Assembly: GCA_019637805.1 (NCBI GenBank) | Contig: JAHBVB010000001.1 | Coordinates: forward strand, 1,033,875-1,097,874 | Source of the DNA: Anaerolineales bacterium | GTDB lineage: Bacteria; Chloroflexota; Anaerolineae; Anaerolineales; UBA11579 | Length of the DNA: 64,000 nucleotides | Direction: 5' to 3' | In this document: positions 16,626 to 30,193 of the stretch, in pieces | Position numbering within the stretch: the stretch's first letter is position 1 | How the letters are laid out: each line of letters starts with the position of its first letter | Translations under genes and position numbers: made by a program | Notes under the pieces: model-generated | What the model saw: the letters and a program-made list of their open reading frames with translations, nothing else | Told to the model about the DNA's origin: nothing | The model's database searches: none

Positions 16626-17004
16626 TGAATTCTCCTCTTTCGGGTGGTGAGGTCAGTATAGCGTAGCTCATCACGCTCGGCAATTCAGCGAGGCGCATGG
16701 GGCATCTGCGCCTTGTCCGCCCAGCCGTGCTCCTTAACGCAGCGGAGGACCTGCAGCGCGTCTTGCACTCTGTCCTCCTCAGCTCTTCATCCTGAAGGCA
16801 GCGAAGGACCCCGACCCCGGGTATCTTATTGGGGCGGTGCGAATAGATCAGCAGCGGTGATCAGGCATCGGCAATTCCGTAGTTTTGCGTAGTTTCGTTT
16901 GCGGAAAGTTGCACAAACGGCAACCTGTGGTAAAATCCACAAAGTCTATTTTTCGGAGTTCGTCACCTCAAATCCCAAGCCTCTTTGCGGTAAATAAGGA
17001 AGTT
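16626..17004. other. Intergenic region between divergent P5C dehydrogenase and nuoA
   Basis: This 379-bp gap holds no credible gene. It contains one degenerate copy of the dispersed repeat TCATCCTGA-AGGCAGCGAAGG (about 16788-16812) and related fragments from about 16737. The right end carries the nuoA promoter. Confidence 0.7.
16909..16936 (+). promoter_or_regulatory. Sigma70-type promoter of nuoA
   Basis: TTGCAC (16909-16914) and TAAAAT (16931-16936) are 16 bp apart. They lie about 70 bp upstream of the nuoA ATG, giving a leader of about 60 nt with an AAGGAAG ribosome-binding site. Confidence 0.6.
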
Positions 17005-17361
17005 ATGCAAAACACTTGGATATTTATCGGAATTTTTGTCGCTATGGCGGCGGTTTTCCCTCTGCTGCCCATCGTGGTCGCCAAATTCCTGGCGCCAAGC
17101 AAGCCCAACGCCATCAAGCTGGACACCTACGAGTGCGGCATGGAAACCGTCGGCGATACTTGGGTGCAGTTTAAGGTGCAGTACTACATTTATGCCCTCA
17201 TCTTCCTGATCTTTGATATCGAAGTCGCTTTCCTGTTCCCCTTTGCCGTGGCTTTCGATATGCTGCCGCTCTTCGCGGTGGTCGAAGGAATCATCTTTAT
17301 CCTTATTCTGGTTGGCGGTCTGTTTTACGCCTGGCGCAAAGGCGCCCTGGAATGGACTTAG
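17005..17361 (+). CDS. nuoA: NADH-quinone oxidoreductase subunit A
   Basis: A small membrane subunit of respiratory complex I, at the junction of the membrane and peripheral arms. The 118-residue protein has three helices and the family motifs [11 protein letters not shown] and [15 protein letters not shown]. The ATG at 17005 follows AAGGAAG. The next gene is nuoH, so nuoB-G and nuoI, which usually follow nuoA, are missing here. An intrinsic terminator lies just after the gene. Confidence 0.97.
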
Positions 17362-17370
17362 TTCACAGGA

Positions 17371-17405
17371 AGAAGGCTGGTGTTGATCTGCCGGCCTTCT
17401 TTTTT
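17371..17405 (+). terminator. Terminator-like hairpin between nuoA and nuoH
   Basis: AGAAGGCTGG (17371-17380) pairs with CCGGCCTTCT (17391-17400), with one G-T wobble, and is followed by T5-6. It has the form of an intrinsic terminator inside what looks like one operon, so it may act as an attenuator that lowers nuoH-N relative to nuoA. Confidence 0.7.
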
Positions 17406-17429
17406 GTTGCCTGAGGAGCCGAGAAAAAC

Positions 17430-18617
17430 ATGTCGTTTTGGCAAGACCCCGTTGCAGTAATTGGTCAATGGATCCTGGACCTGCTGATCAGCCTCAACCT
17501 GCCTGAGGCTTGGGTGACCTTCATCTACACGCTGCTGGGTGTGATCGTGGTCGCCTCCTTCGGTTTGATCCTGGTCATCTTCCTTATCTGGGTGGAGCGC
17601 AAAGTCGCTGCCCGCTTTCAGGACCGCCTGGGTCCCAACCGCGCCGGCCCTTATGGCTTGCTGCAGACCCTGGCGGACATCGTCAAGCTCCTGACAAAGG
17701 AGGACGTCGTCCCTGAGAAGGCGGACCGGCTGGTCTTCAATATCGCGCCGATCCTTTCCATGGTGGCGGTGCTGCTCATCTGGGCTGTGGTGCCCTTTGC
17801 CCCCGGCTGGATCGGCACCGACTTGAATGTCGGCGTGCTCTACATCGCCGCGGTCGGCTCTTTCGGCATCCTCTCGGTGCTGATGGCGGGCTGGTCCTCC
17901 AACAACAAGTACGCCCTGCTGGGCGCCTTTCGCGCCGTGGCGCAGCTGATCTCCTATGAAGTGCCCATGCTGCTGACCATGCTGGTGCCGGTGCTGCTGG
18001 CACGCGGCATGGGTATGGTGCACATGGTCACCGCCCAGGACACCTGGTTCATTTTCCTGGCCCCCGCCGCCGCAGTCGTCTTCCTGATCTCCTCCATCGC
18101 CGAGTTGGGCCGCACGCCCTTTGACCTGCTCGAAGCCGAATCTGAGATCGTGGCCGGCTACCACACCGAATACACCGGCATGAAGTTCGGCCTGTTCTTT
18201 GCCGCCGAATTCCTGCATGCCTTCACGGTCGGCGTGCTCTTCGCCATCTTCTTCCTGGGCGGTTGGCGCGGCCCGTGGGCGGAGCAGGCCCCCATTCTGG
18301 GTCTCTTCTACCTGATGCTTAAGAGCATCTTCGGCTACTTCATTATCATGTGGGTGCGCAGCACGCTGCCGCGTATCCGCATCGACCACATGCTGGCCTT
18401 CAACTGGAAGTTCCTCACCCCGGTGGCGCTGGCTTTGCTGATCCTCACCGCCTTCCTGGACAAGATCTTCTCCGAGACTGCGCTGCGCATTCCGGTCTTG
18501 CTCATCGCCAATCTGGTGGTGCTGGCGATTGGCTACGTGATCAGCTCGGCCATGACCCGCCGTCAGGCCAAAGAGCGCGTCAAGTTCAAGAAACGCCCGG
18601 TGGCCAAGCCGGCTTAG
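17430..18617 (+). CDS. nuoH: NADH-quinone oxidoreductase subunit H
   Basis: A complex I membrane subunit that forms part of the quinone chamber, 395 residues with eight or more helices. Typical motifs are WVERKVAARFQDRLGPNRAG, the acidic quinone-site loop SIAELGRTPFDLLEAESEIVAG (in part) and a C-terminal RIRIDHMLAFNWKFLTP stretch. A GAGGAG lies upstream of the ATG. The C-terminal tail is basic and slightly longer than usual (MTRRQAKERVKFKKRP). Confidence 0.97.
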   Translation: MSFWQDPVAVIGQWILDLLISLNLPEAWVTFIYTLLGVIVVASFGLILVIFLIWVERKVAARFQDRLGPNRAGPYGLLQTLADIVKLLTKEDVVPEKADRLVFNIAPILSMVAVLLIWAVVPFAPGWIGTDLNVGVLYIAAVGSFGILSVLMAGWSSNNKYALLGAFRAVAQLISYEVPMLLTMLVPVLLARGMGMVHMVTAQDTWFIFLAPAAAVVFLISSIAELGRTPFDLLEAESEIVAGYHTEYTGMKFGLFFAAEFLHAFTVGVLFAIFFLGGWRGPWAEQAPILGLFYLMLKSIFGYFIIMWVRSTLPRIRIDHMLAFNWKFLTPVALALLILTAFLDKIFSETALRIPVLLIANLVVLAIGYVISSAMTRRQAKERVKFKKRPVAKPA

Positions 18618-18643
18618 GCAGCCGCCCAGGAGCAATTTGGTTT

Positions 18644-19162
18644 ATGACTGTTGAACAAGGCATCTTTCTTTTTATCAGCTTCCTCATCCTGTTCTCCGGG
18701 TTCATGATGGTGACGCGCTCCAACCTGGTGCATGCCGCGCTCTACCTGATCCTGGTGCTGTTCGGTGTGGCTGTGCTCTTCGTCTTGCTGAACGCCGGCT
18801 TCCTGGCGGTCGTGCAGATCATCGTCTACATCGGCGCCATCGCCATCCTGATGATCTTCGCCGTCATGCTCACGCGTGGCGACGTGACCGGCGAGGCGAT
18901 CACCATGAACAGTGTCTTCGGCTGGGGTATGCTGCTCTCCTCGTTGTTCGGCTTCGCCCTCATTATTATGCTGGGGCAATGGCCGGCGGTCACATCGCTG
19001 GCTCCCGCTTTGCCCACTGGTTGGAATGAACTGGTGGAGATTGGTGTGGCTTTCCTCTCCCCGCAAGGCTTTGTGATCCCCTTTGAAGTGGCTTCGGTGC
19101 TGCTCCTGGCCGCGCTGATCGGCGCCCTGTATGTTGCCCGCGCGCCCAAGAAGGGTGAGTAG
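18644..19162 (+). CDS. nuoJ: NADH-quinone oxidoreductase subunit J
   Basis: A complex I membrane subunit of 172 residues with five helices. It carries the conserved AVVQIIVYIGAIAILMIFAVML segment (TM3 with its pi-bulge, a known hinge element), here beginning at about residue 50. The ATG at 18644 follows a CCAGGAG site, which decides against the longer upstream reading. It lies 26 bp after nuoH and 7 bp before nuoK. Confidence 0.96.
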   Translation: MTVEQGIFLFISFLILFSGFMMVTRSNLVHAALYLILVLFGVAVLFVLLNAGFLAVVQIIVYIGAIAILMIFAVMLTRGDVTGEAITMNSVFGWGMLLSSLFGFALIIMLGQWPAVTSLAPALPTGWNELVEIGVAFLSPQGFVIPFEVASVLLLAALIGALYVARAPKKGE

Positions 19163-19169
19163 GAGTTAT

Positions 19170-19478
19170 ATGATCCCGCTTTCTTGGTACCTCTATCTCG
19201 CCGCCGGCCTGTTCGCGCTGGGCCTGTTTGGCGCAGTGGCCCGTAAAAATGCCGTGGCCATTTTGATGAGCGTGGAGCTAATGCTCAACGCCGTCAACAT
19301 TAATATCGTCGCCTTTTGGCGTTACCTGGCCCCAGCAGAGATTGGCGGCCAGATCTTCGCCATCATGGTCTTCGCCGTGGCCGCCGCCGAAGTGGCTGTG
19401 GGCCTGGCGCTGTTTATCTCCATCTACAACAGCCGCAAGACCATCGCGGCCGACGAAATCAATCTGATGAAGTGGTAG
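19170..19478 (+). CDS. nuoK: NADH-quinone oxidoreductase subunit K
   Basis: A complex I membrane subunit of 102 residues with three helices. The key acidic residues of the proton path are visible: Glu in ILMSVELMLNAVN (TM2) and Glu in FAVAAAEVAVGLAL (TM3). AGGAG lies just upstream of the ATG at 19170. The gene follows nuoJ closely. Confidence 0.97.
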   Translation: MIPLSWYLYLAAGLFALGLFGAVARKNAVAILMSVELMLNAVNINIVAFWRYLAPAEIGGQIFAIMVFAVAAAEVAVGLALFISIYNSRKTIAADEINLMKW

Positions 19479-19484
19479 GCGCTT

Positions 19485-21650
19485 GTGACGACTGAAACAC
19501 TGATCTGGTTAATCCCGCTGCCGCCCCTGCTGGCGTTCTTCCTTATTCTGCTCTTCACGCGCCGCAACAACGCCCTCAGTCATACGGTGGGCGTGGCCGC
19601 TGCCGCCATTTCCTGGCTGCTGGGCATGCTGGTCTTCATCGCTGCGCTGGGTGTGGACCACTTTGGCGAGCACGTCTTCGCCTCGGCCATCAACTGGCTG
19701 CCCCTGGCGGACGGCTTCTTGTCGATCGGCGTGATGATCGACCCGCTCTCAGCCATCGTCCTGTTCTTCGTGAACTGGACCGTGCTGATGATCTTCATCT
19801 ACAGCATCGGCTATCACAACTTCGGCCAACCGGTAGGAGACCACGACCACCCCGGCCTGCCGCCGCACGGCGCCAAGGATGCGAAGCATCCAGGGCACAC
19901 GGTGCCCTCCATCGAGCCGATGTATGCGCGCTTCTTCGCTTTCATCGCTTTGTTCGCCTTCGGCATGTACACCCTGGTGGTCTCAGACAACCTACTGACC
20001 CTCTTTGTGGGCTGGGAGATCATGGGTTTGTGTTCTTACCTGCTGATCGGCTTCTGGTATGCCAAGCCCTCCGCCCGCGATGCGGCCATGAAAGCCTTCA
20101 TGACCACCCGCATCGGTGACGTCTTCATGCTGCTGGGCATCGTGGCGCTGTACGCCGCCACCGGCACCCTCAATTTCCGTGACATTCTCTACAACGCCGA
20201 GGTGCTGGACATGCTGGCCCACAGCCCCAGCTTCATCGGCGGGCTGTCGCTGGCCGGGCTGATCAGCATTCTGCTCTTCATCGGCACGGTGGGCAAATCA
20301 GCCCAGTGGCCGCTGCACGTCTGGCTGCCGGACGCCATGGAAGGCCCGACCCCGGTTTCGGCCATGATCCATGCCGCCACCATGGTCTCGGCCGGCATTT
20401 ATATGGTGCTGCGCATGTTCCCGCTCATCTCCGCCGGCTGGCACCACGGCGAGCTGACCACCGCCATGACCATCATGGCCTTCATCGGCGCCTTCACGGC
20501 GCTCTTCGCCGCCACCATCGCCGTGGCCCAGCGCGACATCAAGCGTGTCCTGGCCTACTCCACCATTTCGCAGCTGGGCTACATGATCGCCGCCCTCGGC
20601 ATTGGCGCTTACGTGGCGGCCGCCTTCCACCTGGTTACCCACGCCTTCTTCAAGGCGCTGCTCTTCCTCGGTTCCGGTTCGGTCATCCACGGCGTGGAGC
20701 ACGGCGTGCTGCATACCGGCGACCACAAAGTCGACCCGCAGGACATGTTCAATATGGGCGGCCTGAAGGACAAGATGCCCATCACTTTCTGGACTTTCCT
20801 GATCGGCGGGTTGGCTCTTTCCGGCTTCCCGCTGCTCACCTCGGGCTTCTGGTCCAAAGACGAGATTCTGGCCGACGCGTTTGCTCACGGCCATTTCGCT
20901 GTTTTCGTTGTCCTGGCCCTGGCGGCGCTGCTCACCGCCTTCTACACCATGCGCCAGATCACGCTGACCTTCCTCGGCAAGCCGCGCACCAAGGAAGCCG
21001 AGCATGCCAGCGAGAATGTCCCGTCCATGACCGTGCCGCTGGTTGTGCTCTCGGTCTTTGCCGTGGCCGCCGGCTGGGTCGGCATCCCCGAGCACTTCCC
21101 GCTCATCGGCGGCTTGCTGCCCAACTGGTTCCACCACTTCCTGGGTGGCGCGCTGCTGGAGCATCCCTCCGCCGTGGACTTCAACTGGATCCCGCTGATC
21201 GTCTCGCTGGTGGTGGCTCTCGGCGGCTTGGGCCTGGGTTATCTGGTCTATCGCAATGCCGGCCAGACCGACCCGCTGCGCAAGGCGCTGGGCCCGGTCT
21301 ACACCCTGCTGGAAAACAAGTACTACTTCGACGAGCTCTACCAGCGCATCTTTGTCAAACCCGCTCAGGCTTTTTCCGAGAACTTCAGCTATCGCTTCCT
21401 GGACGGCGTGGTGATTGACGGCCTGCTGCACCGGGCCGCCCGCGGCGCTATGGGCCTGGGCCTCATCTTCCGCAACAAGTTTGAAGGCCCCGTGATCGAC
21501 TACGCAGCCGATTTGCTGGCGAGGATCACCCAGGCCGCCGGCCGCCTGCTGCGCATCATCCAAACTGGCCAGGTGCAGCAGTACCTGCTGTGGGTGGCGC
21601 TGGTGGTCTTTGGCGGTTTCTTCTATTACCTGCTCAACATTTTGCAATAG
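19485..21650 (+). CDS. nuoL: NADH-quinone oxidoreductase subunit L, with His-rich loop insertion
   Basis: The distal antiporter-like proton-pumping subunit of complex I, 721 residues (E. coli about 613). The TM5 Glu is in LFVGWEIMGLCSYLL, the TM7 Lys in GTVGKSAQWPLHVWLPDAM and the TM8 segment in IHAATMVSAG. The long C-terminal lateral helix region is present (after about residue 590). A 30-residue His/Gly/Asp-rich loop (about residues 113-147: GDHDHPGLPPHGAKDAKHPG) replaces a short loop before PMYARFFAF. The start is GTG at 19485. Confidence 0.96.
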   Translation: MTTETLIWLIPLPPLLAFFLILLFTRRNNALSHTVGVAAAAISWLLGMLVFIAALGVDHFGEHVFASAINWLPLADGFLSIGVMIDPLSAIVLFFVNWTVLMIFIYSIGYHNFGQPVGDHDHPGLPPHGAKDAKHPGHTVPSIEPMYARFFAFIALFAFGMYTLVVSDNLLTLFVGWEIMGLCSYLLIGFWYAKPSARDAAMKAFMTTRIGDVFMLLGIVALYAATGTLNFRDILYNAEVLDMLAHSPSFIGGLSLAGLISILLFIGTVGKSAQWPLHVWLPDAMEGPTPVSAMIHAATMVSAGIYMVLRMFPLISAGWHHGELTTAMTIMAFIGAFTALFAATIAVAQRDIKRVLAYSTISQLGYMIAALGIGAYVAAAFHLVTHAFFKALLFLGSGSVIHGVEHGVLHTGDHKVDPQDMFNMGGLKDKMPITFWTFLIGGLALSGFPLLTSGFWSKDEILADAFAHGHFAVFVVLALAALLTAFYTMRQITLTFLGKPRTKEAEHASENVPSMTVPLVVLSVFAVAAGWVGIPEHFPLIGGLLPNWFHHFLGGALLEHPSAVDFNWIPLIVSLVVALGGLGLGYLVYRNAGQTDPLRKALGPVYTLLENKYYFDELYQRIFVKPAQAFSENFSYRFLDGVVIDGLLHRAARGAMGLGLIFRNKFEGPVIDYAADLLARITQAAGRLLRIIQTGQVQQYLLWVALVVFGGFFYYLLNILQ

Positions 21651-21656
21651 GCGACC

Positions 21657-23231
21657 ATGGACTTTATTAATCAAAACATCCTCTCCCTGATTTTGTTCAG
21701 CCCCTTGCTGGCGGCTCTGGTGGTGCTTTTGCTGCCTGGGCAGAACAAAGACCTGGCCCGCCGGGTCGCCTTTGCCCTCAGCCTGGTGCCGCTGGCCTTC
21801 ACGCTGATCGCCTGGTTCGGCTTCGGCGCCGCGCCTGAGGTGGACGGTTTCCGCATGCAGGAACAGCACGTCTGGTTCCCGGCCATCAATGCCAGCTATC
21901 ACCTCGGCATTGACGGCCTTTCCCTCAGCATGGTGCTGCTCACCGTCATCTTGACCCCGCTGGCCATCCTGGCCTCTTTCAGCGTGGATGACAAGGTCAA
22001 GGCCTACATGGCCCTGTTCCTGGCCCTGGAAACCGGCATGCTGGGCGTCTTTCTCTCGCTGGACCTGCTGCTCTTCTTCGTCTTCTGGGAAATTGGCCTG
22101 GTGCCGATGTATTTCCTGATCGACCAGTGGGGCAGCAAGGGCGGCGAGCGCCAGCTGTGGAACGGCATCAAGATGCCTTCCCGCCGCTACGCCGCCTTCA
22201 AGTTCATGGTCTACACCATGGCGGGCTCCCTGGGCCTGCTGGCCGCCATCCAAATGCTCGGTGTGGTGTCCGGCAGCTTCGACCTGCTGGCCCTCTACCA
22301 AAGCTGGCCGGCTCTGACCGGCACGCTTTTTGGCTATGAGATCGGCACGGTCAAGGCCGTGGCCTTCTGGGCTTTCGCCGTCGCCTTCGCCATCAAGGTG
22401 CCTATTTGGCCCTTCCACACCTGGCTGCCGGATGCGCACACCGAGGCGCCCACGGCCGGCTCCATGATCCTGGCGGGTGTGCTGCTCAAGCTAGGCGCCT
22501 ACGGTTTCCTGCGCCTGGTGCTGCCGCTCTACCCGGAGCAGGCCCAGCAGTATGCCCCGGTGCTGGCCGCCCTGGCCACCGCCGCCATCATCTTCGGCGC
22601 CTTCTCCGCTTTTGCCCAAACTGACTTCAAGCGCCTGGTGGCTTACTCTTCGGTCAACCACATGGGCTTCGTCGTTCTCGGCATCGCCGCCGCGGCCTTC
22701 GCCGCCGGCACCGAAAGCGCCAACATCGCCGTCAACGGCGCCGTGCTGCAGATGTTCAACCACGGCATCTCGGCCGCCGCCATGTTCTTCATGGTCGGCA
22801 TCATTTACGAACGCACCCACACCCGCAACCTGGAAGAGTGGGGCGGTTTGTTTGCCATCGTGCCGGTCTTCGGCGCGCTGCTGATCCTTAGCTCCATGGC
22901 TTCCTTGGGCCTGCCCGGCCTCAATGGCTTTGTTTCGGAATTCTTGGTGGTGCGCGGCGCCTGGCCTATCTTCACGTTCTACACCGCCCTCAGCATGCTC
23001 GGCCTGCTCTTTACCGGCGCCTACATTCTGAAAGGCATCGCCAAGAGCCTGCACGGCCCGCTCAACGAGAAGTGGCGTGTGGCCGAAGGCCACGCAGGCC
23101 ACTTTGAGGATGTCACCCGCCGCGAGCTGCTGGTGCTTTCCCCGCTGGTTGTGCTGATGCTCTGGTTGGGCATTTGGCCGGCCTGGCTGCTGGACGTCAT
23201 TAATCAAGCCATGTTGAAAATCTTTGGCTAG
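21657..23231 (+). CDS. nuoM: NADH-quinone oxidoreductase subunit M (first copy)
   Basis: An antiporter-like complex I subunit of 524 residues. All key residues are present: Glu in FFVFWEIGLVPMYFLI (TM5), Lys in FAIKVPIWPFHTWLPDAH (TM7), Lys in GVLLKLGAYGFLR (TM8) and Glu in FVSEFLVVRG (TM12). It starts 7 bp after nuoL. A direct neighbour encodes a second, more divergent NuoM. Confidence 0.96.
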   Translation: MDFINQNILSLILFSPLLAALVVLLLPGQNKDLARRVAFALSLVPLAFTLIAWFGFGAAPEVDGFRMQEQHVWFPAINASYHLGIDGLSLSMVLLTVILTPLAILASFSVDDKVKAYMALFLALETGMLGVFLSLDLLLFFVFWEIGLVPMYFLIDQWGSKGGERQLWNGIKMPSRRYAAFKFMVYTMAGSLGLLAAIQMLGVVSGSFDLLALYQSWPALTGTLFGYEIGTVKAVAFWAFAVAFAIKVPIWPFHTWLPDAHTEAPTAGSMILAGVLLKLGAYGFLRLVLPLYPEQAQQYAPVLAALATAAIIFGAFSAFAQTDFKRLVAYSSVNHMGFVVLGIAAAAFAAGTESANIAVNGAVLQMFNHGISAAAMFFMVGIIYERTHTRNLEEWGGLFAIVPVFGALLILSSMASLGLPGLNGFVSEFLVVRGAWPIFTFYTALSMLGLLFTGAYILKGIAKSLHGPLNEKWRVAEGHAGHFEDVTRRELLVLSPLVVLMLWLGIWPAWLLDVINQAMLKIFG

Positions 23232-23250
23232 TCGGACATAAGGTGAATTG

Positions 23251-24729
23251 ATGCAAATCCCCTATCTCCTAAGCGCCATCGTTCTGCTGCCCATTTTGGC
23301 CGGCGCGGTGATGCTTTTCCTGCCCCCCAAGAACCGTGATCTGATCTATCGCTTCGCGCTGGGCGCGGCTTTCGTCACCTTCCTGCTGACGCTGGTGGTC
23401 TACTTCGGTTTTGATGCCGCTGGACCGCAATATCAATTCATTGAGGATTATGCTTGGTTGCCGGCCTTGGGCATCTCGTTCAAGCTGGGCGTGGACGGCA
23501 TCAGCGCCCCCTTGGTGCTGCTGACCGGCGTGGTCATTTTCACCGGCGTGATCATTTCGCAGCGCATCGAAGACCGCGTGCGGGAATTCTTCGCTTTCTT
23601 GTTCATTTTGGCCAGCGGTGTCTTCGGCGTCTTTGTGGCGCTGGACATGTTCGCCCTGTTCTTCTTCTATGAGATCGCCGTGTTCCCCATGTACCTGCTG
23701 ATTGCGATGTGGGGCTGGAAGCAGACCCGGGAGTACGCCGCCATGAAGCTGACGCTCTACCTCTTCGTCGGCTCGGTGGTCGCCCTGGTTGGCGCTTTGG
23801 CGATGTACTTCGCCTCTGGTCTCAATACCTTCGATATGACACTGCTGGCGACGGCCAATTTCTCGCCGGCTTTCCAGAACCTGTGGTTCCCCTTCGTCTT
23901 CTTCGGCTTCGCCGTCCTGGGCGGCATCTTCCCCTTCCACAACTGGAGCCCGGTCGGCCATGTGGCCGCCCCCACGGCGGTGTCCATGTTCCACGCTGGC
24001 GTGCTGATGAAGCTGGGCGCTTTCGCCGCCCTGCGTGTCGGCATTATGCTGCTCCCCATCGGCGCCCAGACCCACATGTGGTGGATCATCCTGCTCACTC
24101 TGGTCAATGTGGTCTACGGCGCCTTTATCGCCATGACCCAAACTGACTTCAAGTACATGATCGGTTACTCCTCTGTCTCGCACATGGGCCTGGTGGCCAT
24201 GGGCTTCGCCACCCTGGACTACAACGGCCTGGTGGGCGCCAGCGTGCAGATGGTTTCCCACGGCGTGATGACCGCCCTCTTCTTCGCGGTGGTCGGCATG
24301 ATCTACGACCAGGCCCACACCCGTGAAATTCCCAAGCTGGGCGGGCTGATGAAGATCATGCCTTTCGCCGGCGTGGGCTTCATCATCGGCGGTCTGGTCT
24401 CCATGGGCATGCCCGGCTTCTCCGGCTTCATCGCCGAGTTCCCGATCTTCATGGGCCTGTGGGCCGCCAATTACCCTTGGATCGCCATCATCAGTGTGGT
24501 TTCCATCGCCGTCACCGCCGCCTATATCCTGCGGGCGGTGGGGCAGGTCTTCTTCGGTGAGCTGCCGGCGGACTTGGAAGGCCACATGCACGATGTCAAG
24601 CCTTCGGAAAAATTGGCCATCGGCATCCTCTGCTTCATCATGATTGCCATCGGTATTTACCCCAATGTGATTATGCCCATGGTGCAGCACGGCGTGAACG
24701 CCGTGTTGGCCCTGCTGGGAGGCGCATAA
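23251..24729 (+). CDS. Second NuoM-type subunit lacking the TM7 lysine
   Basis: A 492-residue antiporter-like subunit in tandem with nuoM. The TM5 Glu (FFFYEIAVFPMYLLIAMWG), TM8 Lys (GVLMKLGAFAALR) and TM12 Glu (FIAEFPIFMG) are kept. In TM7 the usual Lys is Leu223 (GFAVLGGIFPFHNWSPVGH), and the following LPDAH signature is changed to SPVGH. The ATG at 23251 is preferred over an adjacent TTG. Two-NuoM forms of complex I are known; here the second copy may be an altered or non-pumping module. Confidence 0.92.
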   Translation: MQIPYLLSAIVLLPILAGAVMLFLPPKNRDLIYRFALGAAFVTFLLTLVVYFGFDAAGPQYQFIEDYAWLPALGISFKLGVDGISAPLVLLTGVVIFTGVIISQRIEDRVREFFAFLFILASGVFGVFVALDMFALFFFYEIAVFPMYLLIAMWGWKQTREYAAMKLTLYLFVGSVVALVGALAMYFASGLNTFDMTLLATANFSPAFQNLWFPFVFFGFAVLGGIFPFHNWSPVGHVAAPTAVSMFHAGVLMKLGAFAALRVGIMLLPIGAQTHMWWIILLTLVNVVYGAFIAMTQTDFKYMIGYSSVSHMGLVAMGFATLDYNGLVGASVQMVSHGVMTALFFAVVGMIYDQAHTREIPKLGGLMKIMPFAGVGFIIGGLVSMGMPGFSGFIAEFPIFMGLWAANYPWIAIISVVSIAVTAAYILRAVGQVFFGELPADLEGHMHDVKPSEKLAIGILCFIMIAIGIYPNVIMPMVQHGVNAVLALLGGA

Positions 24730-26178
24730 ATGTTTTCTTCGATTACTGCTGACATGCTGTTGGCTATCCTCCCGGAAATTTCTCTGCTGTTGCTGATGCT
24801 GGTCGTCTTTGTTGCCGACCTGGTGCTGCACGGCAAGAACAGCCCCTTGCCGGCCTGGATCACGATTGGCGGCCTGGGCCTGACCCTGCTGGCCACCATC
24901 GCCTTTGCCCAGCCCGCCGCGCAGCCGCAGCTGCTATGGGGCGGCATGCTGCGCCATGACTGGCTGGCCTTCATCTTCAAGGTCATCTTCCTCTTCTCGG
25001 CTCTGCTGGTTACCTTGCTGACCGTGGGTTGGCAGAAGCTCTGGTATAAGGGCGAATACTACATCCTGCTGCTGGCCTCCACCATGGGCATGACCCTGAT
25101 GGGCGCTTCGGCCGATCTGGTTATGCTCTTCCTGGCCATTGAGACCACCTCCATCCCGCTCTACATCCTGGCCGGCTTCGTGACCACCGACCGCAAGTCC
25201 AACGAAGCGGGCTTCAAGTATCTGCTCTTCGGCGCGGTCACCACTGGCATCATGCTCTACGGCTTTAGCCTGCTCTATGGCTTTGCCGGCACCACCAACC
25301 TGTACGGCATCGCCAGCGGCATGGCCGCCTCCGGCGTGCCCATTCCGGTCATCGTCGGCGCCCTGCTGTTGGTGCTGGTCGGTTTCGGCTTCAAGGTCTC
25401 CATGGCGCCTCTGCACTTCTGGGCGCCGGATGTCTACGAAGGGTCCCCCACGCCCATCACCGCCTTCCTCTCCACCGCCTCCAAGGCGGCCGGTCTGGCG
25501 GTGCTGATGCGCGTCATGCTGGCGGCCTTCCCCGGCATTCAGCCGGAATGGCAGAACATCATTGCCGTCGGTTCGGCCCTCACCATGACCATCGGCAACC
25601 TCATCGCCCTCAGCCAGCACAACATCAAGCGTCTCCTGGCCTACTCCTCCATCGCCCACGCCGGCTATTCGCTGCTGGCCGTGGCCGCCGCTTCGGAGTT
25701 GGGCGTGCTCAGCGTGGTCTACTACCTGCTGGTCTACACCGTCACCCAGATCGCCGCCTTCGCCGTGGTCATTGTGGTCTCCAACGTCACCGGGTCAGAC
25801 GAGATCGCAGACTTTGCGGGCCTGCATCGCCGCAACCCCATGCTCGCGCTGGCTTTGCTGCTCTCCTTCCTCTCGCTGGCCGGCATCCCGCCCCTGGGCG
25901 GCTTCATCGCCAAGGTGCTGGCCTTCGCCGCTGCGGTGCAGGCGGGCCTGATCTGGCTGGCCGTGGTGGGCGTGCTCAACTCCATCGTCGGCCTCTACTA
26001 CTACCTGATCGTGCTCAAAGTTGCCTACCTGGATGAACCCAAGGGCGAGGCCGTCATTGCGCCCAGCCGCCCGCAGGCGGCCACTTTGGTGGTCTCCATC
26101 GTCCTGGTGCTTATCCTGGGCGTAGTGATTGCGCCCTGGTACAACTGGGCCGCTTCTGGCGCTGGCGGGCTTTTCTAG
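24730..26178 (+). CDS. nuoN: NADH-quinone oxidoreductase subunit N
   Basis: The antiporter-like complex I subunit nearest the NuoA/J/K end, 482 residues and about 14 helices. The TM7 Lys is in VGFGFKVSMAPLHFWAPDVYEG, and KAAGLAVLMR marks TM8. The ATG follows the previous TAA directly with no gap. It is the last nuo gene; a GGCGGGC/GCCCGCC hairpin (26164-26184) overlaps its end, with only a weak T-tract. Confidence 0.96.
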   Translation: MFSSITADMLLAILPEISLLLLMLVVFVADLVLHGKNSPLPAWITIGGLGLTLLATIAFAQPAAQPQLLWGGMLRHDWLAFIFKVIFLFSALLVTLLTVGWQKLWYKGEYYILLLASTMGMTLMGASADLVMLFLAIETTSIPLYILAGFVTTDRKSNEAGFKYLLFGAVTTGIMLYGFSLLYGFAGTTNLYGIASGMAASGVPIPVIVGALLLVLVGFGFKVSMAPLHFWAPDVYEGSPTPITAFLSTASKAAGLAVLMRVMLAAFPGIQPEWQNIIAVGSALTMTIGNLIALSQHNIKRLLAYSSIAHAGYSLLAVAAASELGVLSVVYYLLVYTVTQIAAFAVVIVVSNVTGSDEIADFAGLHRRNPMLALALLLSFLSLAGIPPLGGFIAKVLAFAAAVQAGLIWLAVVGVLNSIVGLYYYLIVLKVAYLDEPKGEAVIAPSRPQAATLVVSIVLVLILGVVIAPWYNWAASGAGGLF

Positions 26179-27850: not shown

Positions 27851-28588
27851 TTGGAAGCCTTAGGTATTAATCTGGGTTTTCTGATCGTTCAGATCTGCAG
27901 CTTCTTGCTGTTGATGATCGCCTTGCGCGCTTGGGTGTTTACACCCATCACCAATATGTTGGAGCGCCGCCGCGAGACCATCAGCAAGGGTCTTGAGGAC
28001 GCTGCCATCGCCGCCGAGGCGCGTGCCAACGCGGAGAAGGAAGCCGAAAAGCTGCTGAACGACGCTCGTACCAAGGCAGCTACCGAGGCCCGCGAGGTTA
28101 CCACCCGCGCCGAAGAGCAAGCCAAACAGATCCGCGCCGCCGCCGAGGCCACCGCTGGCAAAGCCCGCGAAGAAGCCCTGGCTGAGGTCGACGCTGAGCG
28201 CGCCCGCGTGCTTAGCGATGTGCGCGGTCAAGTTGGCGCCCTGGCGATTGCCGCCGCTCAGAAGCTCATCGGCGACGCGATGGACGAGAAGAAGCAGAAA
28301 GCCCTCATCGATGAATTCTTCTCCGGCGTCAAGTCCGGCAAGGTCACTGTGCTGGAAGGCGCCAGCGTCAGCGGCGCGGCCGCTACGGTCACCAGCGCCC
28401 TGCCGCTCAGCAAGTCCGAGCAGGATGATGTGCAGAAGCAGGTCCTGGCCGCCATTGGTGGCAAGGGCGAGGTCAGCTTCAAGGTCGACCCCAACATCTT
28501 GGGCGGCATTGTGGTGCGCGTGGGCGATAAGGTCCTGGACGGTTCTGTGTCCGGCCAGCTCAACTCCATGCGCCAGAACCTGCGCTGA
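27851..28588 (+). CDS. ATP synthase subunit b fused to the C-terminal part of delta
   Basis: A 245-residue peripheral-stalk protein. Residues 1-25 are the membrane anchor of subunit b, followed by a long charged coiled coil (about 30-165). From about residue 183 the sequence switches to a delta/OSCP C-terminal domain: LPLSKSEQDDVQKQV, then DPNILGGIVVRVGDKVLDGSV and QLNSMRQNL. The N-terminal six-helix bundle of delta, which binds F1 alpha, is absent. The start is a rare TTG at 27851 with GGAG upstream. No atpH, A, G, D or C follows; the operon ends here at a terminator. Confidence 0.88.
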   Translation: MEALGINLGFLIVQICSFLLLMIALRAWVFTPITNMLERRRETISKGLEDAAIAAEARANAEKEAEKLLNDARTKAATEAREVTTRAEEQAKQIRAAAEATAGKAREEALAEVDAERARVLSDVRGQVGALAIAAAQKLIGDAMDEKKQKALIDEFFSGVKSGKVTVLEGASVSGAAATVTSALPLSKSEQDDVQKQVLAAIGGKGEVSFKVDPNILGGIVVRVGDKVLDGSVSGQLNSMRQNLR

Positions 28589-28654: not shown

Positions 28655-30193
28655 ATGCTCAACTTATCTGAACTGCTAGGGGAGGTCACCAACGTCGCCC
28701 TGCCGGATGTGCAGGTCGGCGGCCTGGCCTTGGACTCGCGCCTGGTCAAGCCGGGCGACGTTTTCTTCGCCATTGTGCAGGGCGTGGACCGTTACCAGTT
28801 CCTTGATGAAGTGCTGGCCCGCGGCGCCGTTGCCGTGGTCGGCGAGCGCGCCGGCGTGCAGCTGCCCATCCCGCACATCCAGGTCGCCGATGCGCGCGCC
28901 GCCCTGGCCGCCGCCGCCGCCGCCCTCTACCGCTACCCGGCTCGCGACCTGACCATCATCGGCGTCACCGGCACGGACGGCAAGACCACCACATCCAATT
29001 TTATCTACCAGATCCTGCAGGCGGCCGGCTTGGGCACCGGCATGATCTCCACCGTCAACGCCCAGATCGGCGAGCAGGTGTTGGACACCGGCTTCCACGT
29101 CACCACACCAGAGGCCTTTGACACCCAGGGCTACCTGCGCCAAATGGCCGACGCTGGGCTGAGCCACGCCGTGCTGGAAATGACCTCCATCGGCCTGGCC
29201 CAGCAGCGCGGCGCCCGTCCCGCAGAATTTGATATTGGCGTGGTGACCAACATCACCCACGAGCACCTCAACGACCACGGCACCTACGAGGCCTATTTCG
29301 ATGCCAAAGCCAGGCTCTTTGACGGCCTGGCGCAGCCGGCCCACAAAACGCGCCCGGTGGGCCGCCTGGCCGTGCTCAACCGTGACGACCGCTCCTACGC
29401 TGGGCTGGCCGCCAGGGTGACCGCCCGGCAGCTGGCCTACGGCCTGCATGCCGAGGCCGACCTGCGCGCCGAGGACGTGGTCAACCAGCCGGGCAGCCTC
29501 AGCTTCACCGCTGTAGGTCCTGGCGGACTGCGTTTTCCGGTGCACACGCCCATGTTTGGCGCCTACAACGTCTCCAACGCCCTGGCCGCCATCGGCAGCA
29601 CCGTCATCGGCCTCGGGCTGCCGGTAGAGGCGGCTCAGCAGGGCATCGCCGCCCTGCGGGGCGTGCCCGGCCGCATGGAGCGCATTGAGATGGGCCAGGA
29701 CTTCAACGCCATCGTCGACTTTGCCCACACGCCCTTCGCCCTCATCGCCGCCTTGCAGGCCGGCCGCCAACTCACGGCTGGCAAGCTCATCGCCGTCTTC
29801 GGCTCCGCCGGCCTGCGCGACAAGGCCAAACGCCGCATGATGGCTGAGGCCGCCGCCGAACTGGCCGACATCAGCGTGCTGACCGCCGAAGACCCGCGCA
29901 CCGAATCGTTGGATGGCATCCTCGAAGAAATGGCCGCTGGGGCACGGCATAAGGGTGGGGTGGAGGGCAAAAGCTTCTTCCGCGTCCCCGACCGCGGCGC
30001 GGCGATCTCCTTTGCCCTGCTGCAAGCCCAGCCCGGCGATCTGGTCATCGTCCTCGGCAAAGGCCATGAGCAGTCCATGTGCTTCGGCGAGACCGAGTAT
30101 CCTTGGGACGATCGCATTGCTTTGCGCGCCGCCCTGGCCGAATATCTGGGCGTCCCCGGCCCGGAAATGCCCAAACTGCCGACGAGTGGGTAG
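28655..30193 (+). CDS. murE: UDP-N-acetylmuramyl-tripeptide synthetase
   Basis: Adds the third amino acid (a diamino acid) to UDP-MurNAc-L-Ala-D-Glu in peptidoglycan synthesis, in the cytoplasm. The 512-residue protein has the ATP loop GVTGTDGKTTT (about 103-113), the LEMTS segment and the carbamylated-Lys region FDAKARLFDGL. The amino-acid recognition motif is EDPR at 412-415; meso-DAP enzymes usually have DNPR and Lys enzymes DDPN. The third amino acid is therefore uncertain, and ornithine, known in Chloroflexota, is possible. Confidence 0.93.
   Translation: MLNLSELLGEVTNVALPDVQVGGLALDSRLVKPGDVFFAIVQGVDRYQFLDEVLARGAVAVVGERAGVQLPIPHIQVADARAALAAAAAALYRYPARDLTIIGVTGTDGKTTTSNFIYQILQAAGLGTGMISTVNAQIGEQVLDTGFHVTTPEAFDTQGYLRQMADAGLSHAVLEMTSIGLAQQRGARPAEFDIGVVTNITHEHLNDHGTYEAYFDAKARLFDGLAQPAHKTRPVGRLAVLNRDDRSYAGLAARVTARQLAYGLHAEADLRAEDVVNQPGSLSFTAVGPGGLRFPVHTPMFGAYNVSNALAAIGSTVIGLGLPVEAAQQGIAALRGVPGRMERIEMGQDFNAIVDFAHTPFALIAALQAGRQLTAGKLIAVFGSAGLRDKAKRRMMAEAAAELADISVLTAEDPRTESLDGILEEMAAGARHKGGVEGKSFFRVPDRGAAISFALLQAQPGDLVIVLGKGHEQSMCFGETEYPWDDRIALRAALAEYLGVPGPEMPKLPTSG

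Follow-up and report, generated by a model that had tools for sequence, protein, structure and literature searches.

In models of complex I, a buried Glu-Lys pair in each antiporter-like subunit opens and closes and in this way passes the signal on. To our knowledge, the Lys of this pair is treated in such models as universally conserved.

Mutation of K234 in NuoM, K229 in NuoL or K217 in NuoN of E. coli leads to loss of function (PMC3046159), which bears out the need for K234 named in a preliminary description of the DNA analysed here. In Nqo13 of Thermus, the Glu123-Lys204 pair sets the barrier and Lys235, His292 and Glu377 form the path, while the exchange E123Q raises proton conduction (PMC11496545). 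NuoL has a further element: its His254 is the meeting place of three proton routes, and in one of its positions it points to the Lys-Glu pair, toward which it swings in simulations as well as in structures (PMC13358369). This helix VIII His feature is stated to be absent from NuoM (PMC4938563, PMC7419157), and a His in TM8 is described as peculiar to NuoL and MrpA. Complex I forms with two NuoM (2M), correctly named as already described in the preliminary description, are known from Chloroflexi. Their layout, with nuoL and nuoN on either side of a pair of nuoM genes, nuoBCDI apart and nuoCD fused, is given in PMC7117926, citing Chadwick et al. 2018, and the insertion in the lateral helix of NuoL in PMC9040806. 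The passages of PMC7117926 on this complex treat the extra NuoM as an ordinary pump and mention neither a TM7 Lys nor a TM8 His; it is in these residues that the locus described here differs.

Operon and host genome of the two NuoM

The window, i.e. the whole stretch of 64,000 nucleotides analysed, carries nuoA-H-J-K-L-M1-M2-N at 16885-26178 on the + strand, with ATP synthase genes after it:

16885..17361, + strand, nuoA (family search)
17430..18617, + strand, nuoH (family search)
18644..19162, + strand, nuoJ (family search)
19131..19478, + strand, nuoK (family search)
19485..21650, + strand, nuoL (family search)
21657..23231, + strand, nuoM1, Lys-type NuoM with TM7 Lys247, of a clade other than that of M2 (family search, alignment, trees)
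23251..24729, + strand, nuoM2, Lys-less NuoM (TM7 Leu, TM8 His), 492 aa (translation, family search, alignment)
24730..26178, + strand, nuoN (family search)

The product of nuoM2 (M2) is a NuoM according to the NCBIfam model NDH_I_M (TIGR01972; 442.1 bits, curated cut-off 263.8). The host genome (G000) comprises 2.34 Mb in 5 contigs; nuoB, a fused nuoCD (604 aa) and nuoI are located on a separate contig, C2 (locus L208). A second nuo operon of the same genome, with one NuoM, is found at C1:1108-1122 kb, its nuoE, F and G being named from order and length without a family search. With two NuoM genes flanked by nuoL and nuoN, nuoB, nuoCD and nuoI away from the operon and a long lateral-helix insertion in NuoL, the window operon corresponds to the 2M complex I known from Chloroflexi. 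Among the best 80 of 554 matches (the named loci), the whole L-M1-M2-N row was present in 71, outer genes being absent from the other nine, and the relatives were labelled Anaerolineales, Anaerolineae or Chloroflexi/Chloroflexota throughout.

The lateral (HL) helix was measured between conserved anchors in NuoL:

21327..21584, + strand, HL region of the window NuoL, 79 aa (anchor alignment)
L129:9092-11185, corresponding to G000:C1 about 1117.1-1119.2 kb, NuoL of the one-NuoM operon of G000, HL region 80 aa (anchor alignment)

The region was 76-80 aa long in 18/18 NuoL of 2M operons and 50-52 aa in 26 of 28 NuoL of one-NuoM operons (E. coli, 47); in the window, the helix exceeds that of most one-NuoM relatives by about 28 residues. 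The two exceptions, NuoL of the host's own one-NuoM operon and of L194 (81 aa), weaken helix length as a stand-alone mark of 2M operons, and as a proof of 2M assembly it holds only in part. Key residues were kept in the same loci in 47/47 NuoN and 46/47 NuoL (one D to E).

Among the adjacent ATP synthase genes, the b subunit (27851-28588, 245 aa) has 70 final residues which match delta-type models. The next long open reading frame (28655-30193) resembles murE by its translation and does not look like an F1 gene.

Residues of M2 and a Lys-less class of NuoM

Residues of M2 were matched to those of E. coli K-12 NuoM by alignment:

23671..23673, + strand, codon of Glu141, TM5 Glu (E. coli E144), kept (alignment)
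23917..23919, + strand, codon CTG of Leu223, at the site of E. coli K234, the TM7 Lys (alignment)
23992..23994, + strand, codon of His248, TM8 (E. coli NuoM L259; NuoL His254) (three MAFFT methods)
24010..24012, + strand, codon of Lys254, TM8 Lys (E. coli K265), kept (alignment)
24436..24438, + strand, codon of Glu396, TM12 Glu (E. coli E407), kept (alignment)

Of the four residues of the canonical proton module, the TM5 Glu, TM8 Lys and TM12 Glu are thus present in M2 and the TM7 Lys is not, in agreement with the preliminary description, which had read the tandem copies by eye; His311 is retained as well. A Lys at a shifted position in TM7, which that description had set as the case against its claim, or a misalignment was ruled out by three alignment methods and by a scan of TM7 in 126 distinct Lys-less NuoM (see below), none of which has K or R from M2 position 213 to 242. 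The column of Leu223 was likewise unchanged in HMMER alignments with the top two solved NuoM/NdhD chains. Since Leu223 is invariant among relatives, in 30/30 M2 loci of this and the nearest genomes and in 29/29 sequences of alignment A2, chance or a sequencing slip can be excluded, and the loss, whose fixation among M2 the preliminary description had put up for checking, is fixed. The exchange of LPDAH for SPVGH, noted at the same time, is real in M2 of the window but does not hold as a general motif, most relatives having SPDGH.

By all three alignments, His248 shares a column with His254 of E. coli NuoL. M2 resembles the subunits with a switch histidine, NuoL and MrpA (PMC13358369, PMC4938563), in having this His at the same aligned TM8 position, whereas the Lys of the Lys-Glu pair, the partner of the switch, is missing (L223). 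The arrangement is reversed between the two proteins: NuoL has the TM7 Lys, with Thr260 at the TM8 site in E. coli, while M2 has Leu in TM7 and Lys in TM8. With canonical NuoM/ND4/Nqo13, M2 has in common the fold, the TM5 Glu, TM8 Lys, TM11 His and TM12 Glu, but it differs from them in having Leu for the TM7 Lys and His for the TM8 Leu, and at about a dozen linked sites.

NuoM sequences were collected from the 80 named loci, 28 further loci and 39 phylum-wide stretches, and the window, the one-NuoM operon of G000 and E. coli were also compared. Pieces shorter than 420 aa (Chloroflexota-wide loci) or than 85% of the reference length (named loci) were dropped before alignment, and removal of 13 duplicate rows reduced 259 to 246 distinct NuoM, all of them from Chloroflexota except E. 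coli. Seven NuoM from other phyla (three Bacteroidota, Sinorhizobium, Mycobacterium, Paenibacillus and Legionella) and M2 of the nearest genomes (30 loci) were typed apart from these.

The TM7 Lys was present in 120 of the 246 NuoM and absent from 126, which had Leu (124) or Thr (2) instead. A His at the site of His248 was found in 122/126 Lys-less proteins versus 0/120 of the Lys-type, where the site is occupied by Leu (119) or Val (1). The Lys-less class, labelled LH in this analysis, keeps H311, E396 and K166 in 126/126, K254 in 124/126 and E141 in 123/126. Four of the 126 have neither TM7 Lys nor TM8 His, so the His is not strictly required; these are L160 and L157 (both Thr/Leu at the two sites), L152 (Leu/Leu) and L177 (Leu/Ala, with Asp in place of the TM5 Glu at position 141), the last being the sole NuoM of its operon. 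A near relative of the window, L039, has Leu together with a Glu that precedes the TM8 Lys by two residues. M2 of L162 and L170, sister rows in the tree, have lost the TM8 Lys as well (Asn and Ala, respectively) and keep Leu and His. The His motif, searched for as an exact DNA pattern, matched in 87/400 Chloroflexota genomes and 44/223 genera (reversed control, 0 matches); as such a pattern overlooks variants, at least this number of genomes carry it.

At fifteen sites, a state that is near-fixed in LH is rare in the Lys-type. The changed sites cluster from TM5 to TM8 (TM5, 140 and 143; TM6, 167 and 171; TM7, 223, 233, 236 and 239; TM8, 248 and 253; further, 225), and most LH-specific changes surround the buried Glu-Lys pair. 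The exchange of TM7 Pro236 for Gly, Ala or Ser is a further LH switch. Beyond the Lys and the His, LH shows neither gain nor loss of a strongly conserved titratable residue, with K166, K254, D299, K301, H311, H337 and E396 unaltered. The LH class contradicts both the stated absence of the helix VIII His from NuoM and a universal TM7 Lys: in this large natural branch, the two rules are broken together while the rest of the proton path is kept. The branch provides a natural test of whether the requirement is for a charge in TM7 or for a titratable partner of the TM5 Glu of whatever kind. It appears to be previously undescribed, as does the fact that the loss of the Lys is not tied to an "extra" module; no report of a Lys-less NuoM branch was found in the literature at title, abstract or passage level, a scope outside which Chadwick et al. 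2018 and most subscription papers lie.

Occurrence in one-NuoM operons and phylogeny

LH NuoM is found in two settings: it is M2 in 2M operons and the sole NuoM in A-B-C-D-H-I-J-K-L-M-N operons. In the phylum-wide stretches, some of which end at contig ends, 15 LH loci and the Leu/Ala locus have it as the only NuoM. The HL region of NuoL is 51 aa long in 14/14 LH one-NuoM operons in which NuoL was read, which gives no sign of space for a hidden fourth module. A second NuoM above the family cut-off was present in 11 of 12 chosen Chloroflexota genomes with Lys-less one-NuoM clusters (11/12 carry the LH pattern), so that those cells do not depend on LH NuoM alone.

Outside Chloroflexota, LH-type sole NuoM were found in plasmid records of the Bacteroidota B. 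finegoldii, P. nigrescens and P. massiliensis; as the record of the latter is without annotation, its NuoM was typed alone and not its other nuo genes. NuoM of Sinorhizobium meliloti, Legionella adelaidensis and Mycobacterium paragordonae are of the Lys-type. Paenibacillus cellulosilyticus (L203) has TM7 Lys and TM8 His together, on a long branch, and possibly represents an intermediate state. The 11-subunit NUO of Bacteroides and Prevotella shares with the window an LH-type NuoM (43-46% identity to M2), but differs in having one NuoM and the genes A-B-CD-H-I-J-K-L-M-N in a single operon. The finding also bears on gut Bacteroidota. In Bacteroides fragilis, a candidate carrier of LH NuoM, deletion of nuo left NADH dehydrogenase activity and mouse colonisation unchanged (PMC7002350); that nuo contributes no NADH dehydrogenase activity is expected, because nuoEFG are absent (PMC7002350). 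In the parts of the literature covered, no demonstration of proton pumping by any LH complex was found.

Two trees were calculated after removal of the TM7-TM8 columns that hold the trait. In a quick tree of 90 rows rooted on NuoN, all 44 Lys-less rows lay on one side of a single branch (SH-aLRT 100), with one change of the Lys state. In a careful tree of 72 rows, for which 18 of the 90 were dropped (outgroup, long or near-identical; Paenibacillus was kept), the 38 Lys-less rows were separated by one branch with 100/100 support, and 200/200 bootstrap trees agreed. The loss of the Lys has a single origin on both trees. All three rows of the NuoN outgroup have K at this site and so do the other NuoM, which makes the TM7 Lys ancestral. 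M1 proteins, whether from Anaerolineae or from other 2M families, fall in the Lys part of the tree, away from M2; M1 and M2 are in separate supported clades and are not recent duplicates, so a recent tandem duplication can be discarded. The 2M complex appears to have formed by joining an LH-type NuoM with a Lys-type NuoM. As the M2 kind also lives alone and M1 comes from the Lys branch, M2 is likely the older resident NuoM and M1 the newcomer, which would invert the usual view of the second NuoM in 2M complexes.

Across the 55 loci with all four genes, mean identity to the window copy was 70.8% for L, 68.9% for M1, 69.2% for M2 and 57.0% for N, and M2 was more conserved than NuoN in 55/55. No sign of decay of M2 was seen, its identity over these loci equalling that of M1. 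Taken together, one-NuoM operons, the single origin, the gain of the TM8 His and a conservation equal to that of M1 show that the loss of the Lys is not specific to the second module. The preliminary description had linked it to an extra module with changed stoichiometry or a structural role only; this finds no support, since the sole NuoM of one-NuoM operons shares the loss, although altered pumping per module is still conceivable.

Proton path and alternative readings

A rather probable explanation is that M2 belongs to an old LH branch as the resident NuoM, to which M1 was added while the NuoL helix was lengthened, and that its proton path works with His248 gating Glu141. The residues, the clade, the operons and the helix length on which it builds are observed; judged by sequence, M2 would be expected to pump, with His248 as its gate. 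In the buried Glu-Lys pair, Leu has taken the place of the TM7 Lys, and the TM8 Leu has given way to His at the position of the NuoL/MrpA switch; the LH NuoM would be the resident subunit in a lineage with complex I of the 11-subunit type. To this, the 2M complex would have added a Lys-type M1 from the other branch, together with the longer lateral helix of NuoL. With the Lys254-His311-Glu396 path intact, protons would still be carried; His248 may take over from the lost Lys as titratable partner of Glu141 and act as gate from the lateral axis to the central Lys. On the best reading, M2 would be a working proton module in which the Glu-Lys gate has been rebuilt around His, and no degenerate spacer.

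It is quite unlikely that M2 is a structural element which takes up space in the longer arm and has ceased to move protons. In E. coli, function is lost when the Lys missing here is mutated (PMC3046159), the complex also contains the Lys-type M1, and two M2 have lost the TM8 Lys too; but the same type of NuoM serves as the only one in one-NuoM operons, H311 and E396 are invariant with K254 kept in 124/126, and M2 is conserved as well as M1 and above NuoN in 55/55 loci. Doubtful, too, is a pump with altered coupling, in which the pair would be permanently open, conduction freer and less than one proton moved per cycle. Opening of the pair in Thermus Nqo13 by E123Q does lead to more proton conduction (PMC11496545), yet an open pair has no need of the TM5 Glu, which is kept in 123/126, and a leaky sole NuoM would presumably waste energy in one-NuoM complexes.

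A loss of the Lys by drift after duplication, confined to 2M complexes, is barely credible: the Lys-less gene is indeed the second of two tandem genes, but M1 and M2 lie in separate supported clades and the loss is common to one-NuoM operons and Bacteroidota, members which refute any 2M-specific decay. It is very improbable that the TM8 His signals a different ion, e.g. Na+, and not a different gate; the helix VIII stretch with His254 has been proposed as an ion-specificity feature of NuoL and MrpA (PMC4938563), whereas nothing was found in favour of Na+ and the other residues of the proton path are unaltered.

The reading of M2 as a working module with a His-based gate can be widened, tentatively though as a serious possibility from the sequences at hand, to a natural class of complex I in which the central module pumps without a TM7 Lys by means of a Glu-His gate, formed by introducing the NuoL/MrpA switch histidine in NuoM. 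The class would have arisen once, perhaps via a Lys-plus-His stage like that of Paenibacillus, and would be resident in the 11-subunit complexes of Chloroflexota and Bacteroidota and placed beside a Lys-type module in 2M complexes. If true, 2M complexes hold two differently gated pumps in series.

An AlphaFold model of M2 (pTM 0.82, pLDDT 79.7) has an antiporter-like fold, with pLDDT below 50 at 228-241, where the TM7 break is unreliable; the model of M1 reached a pLDDT of 84.6. In a Foldseek comparison, carried out with the M2 model only, the closest PDB folds were NdhD/NuoM chains with a TM score of 0.89.
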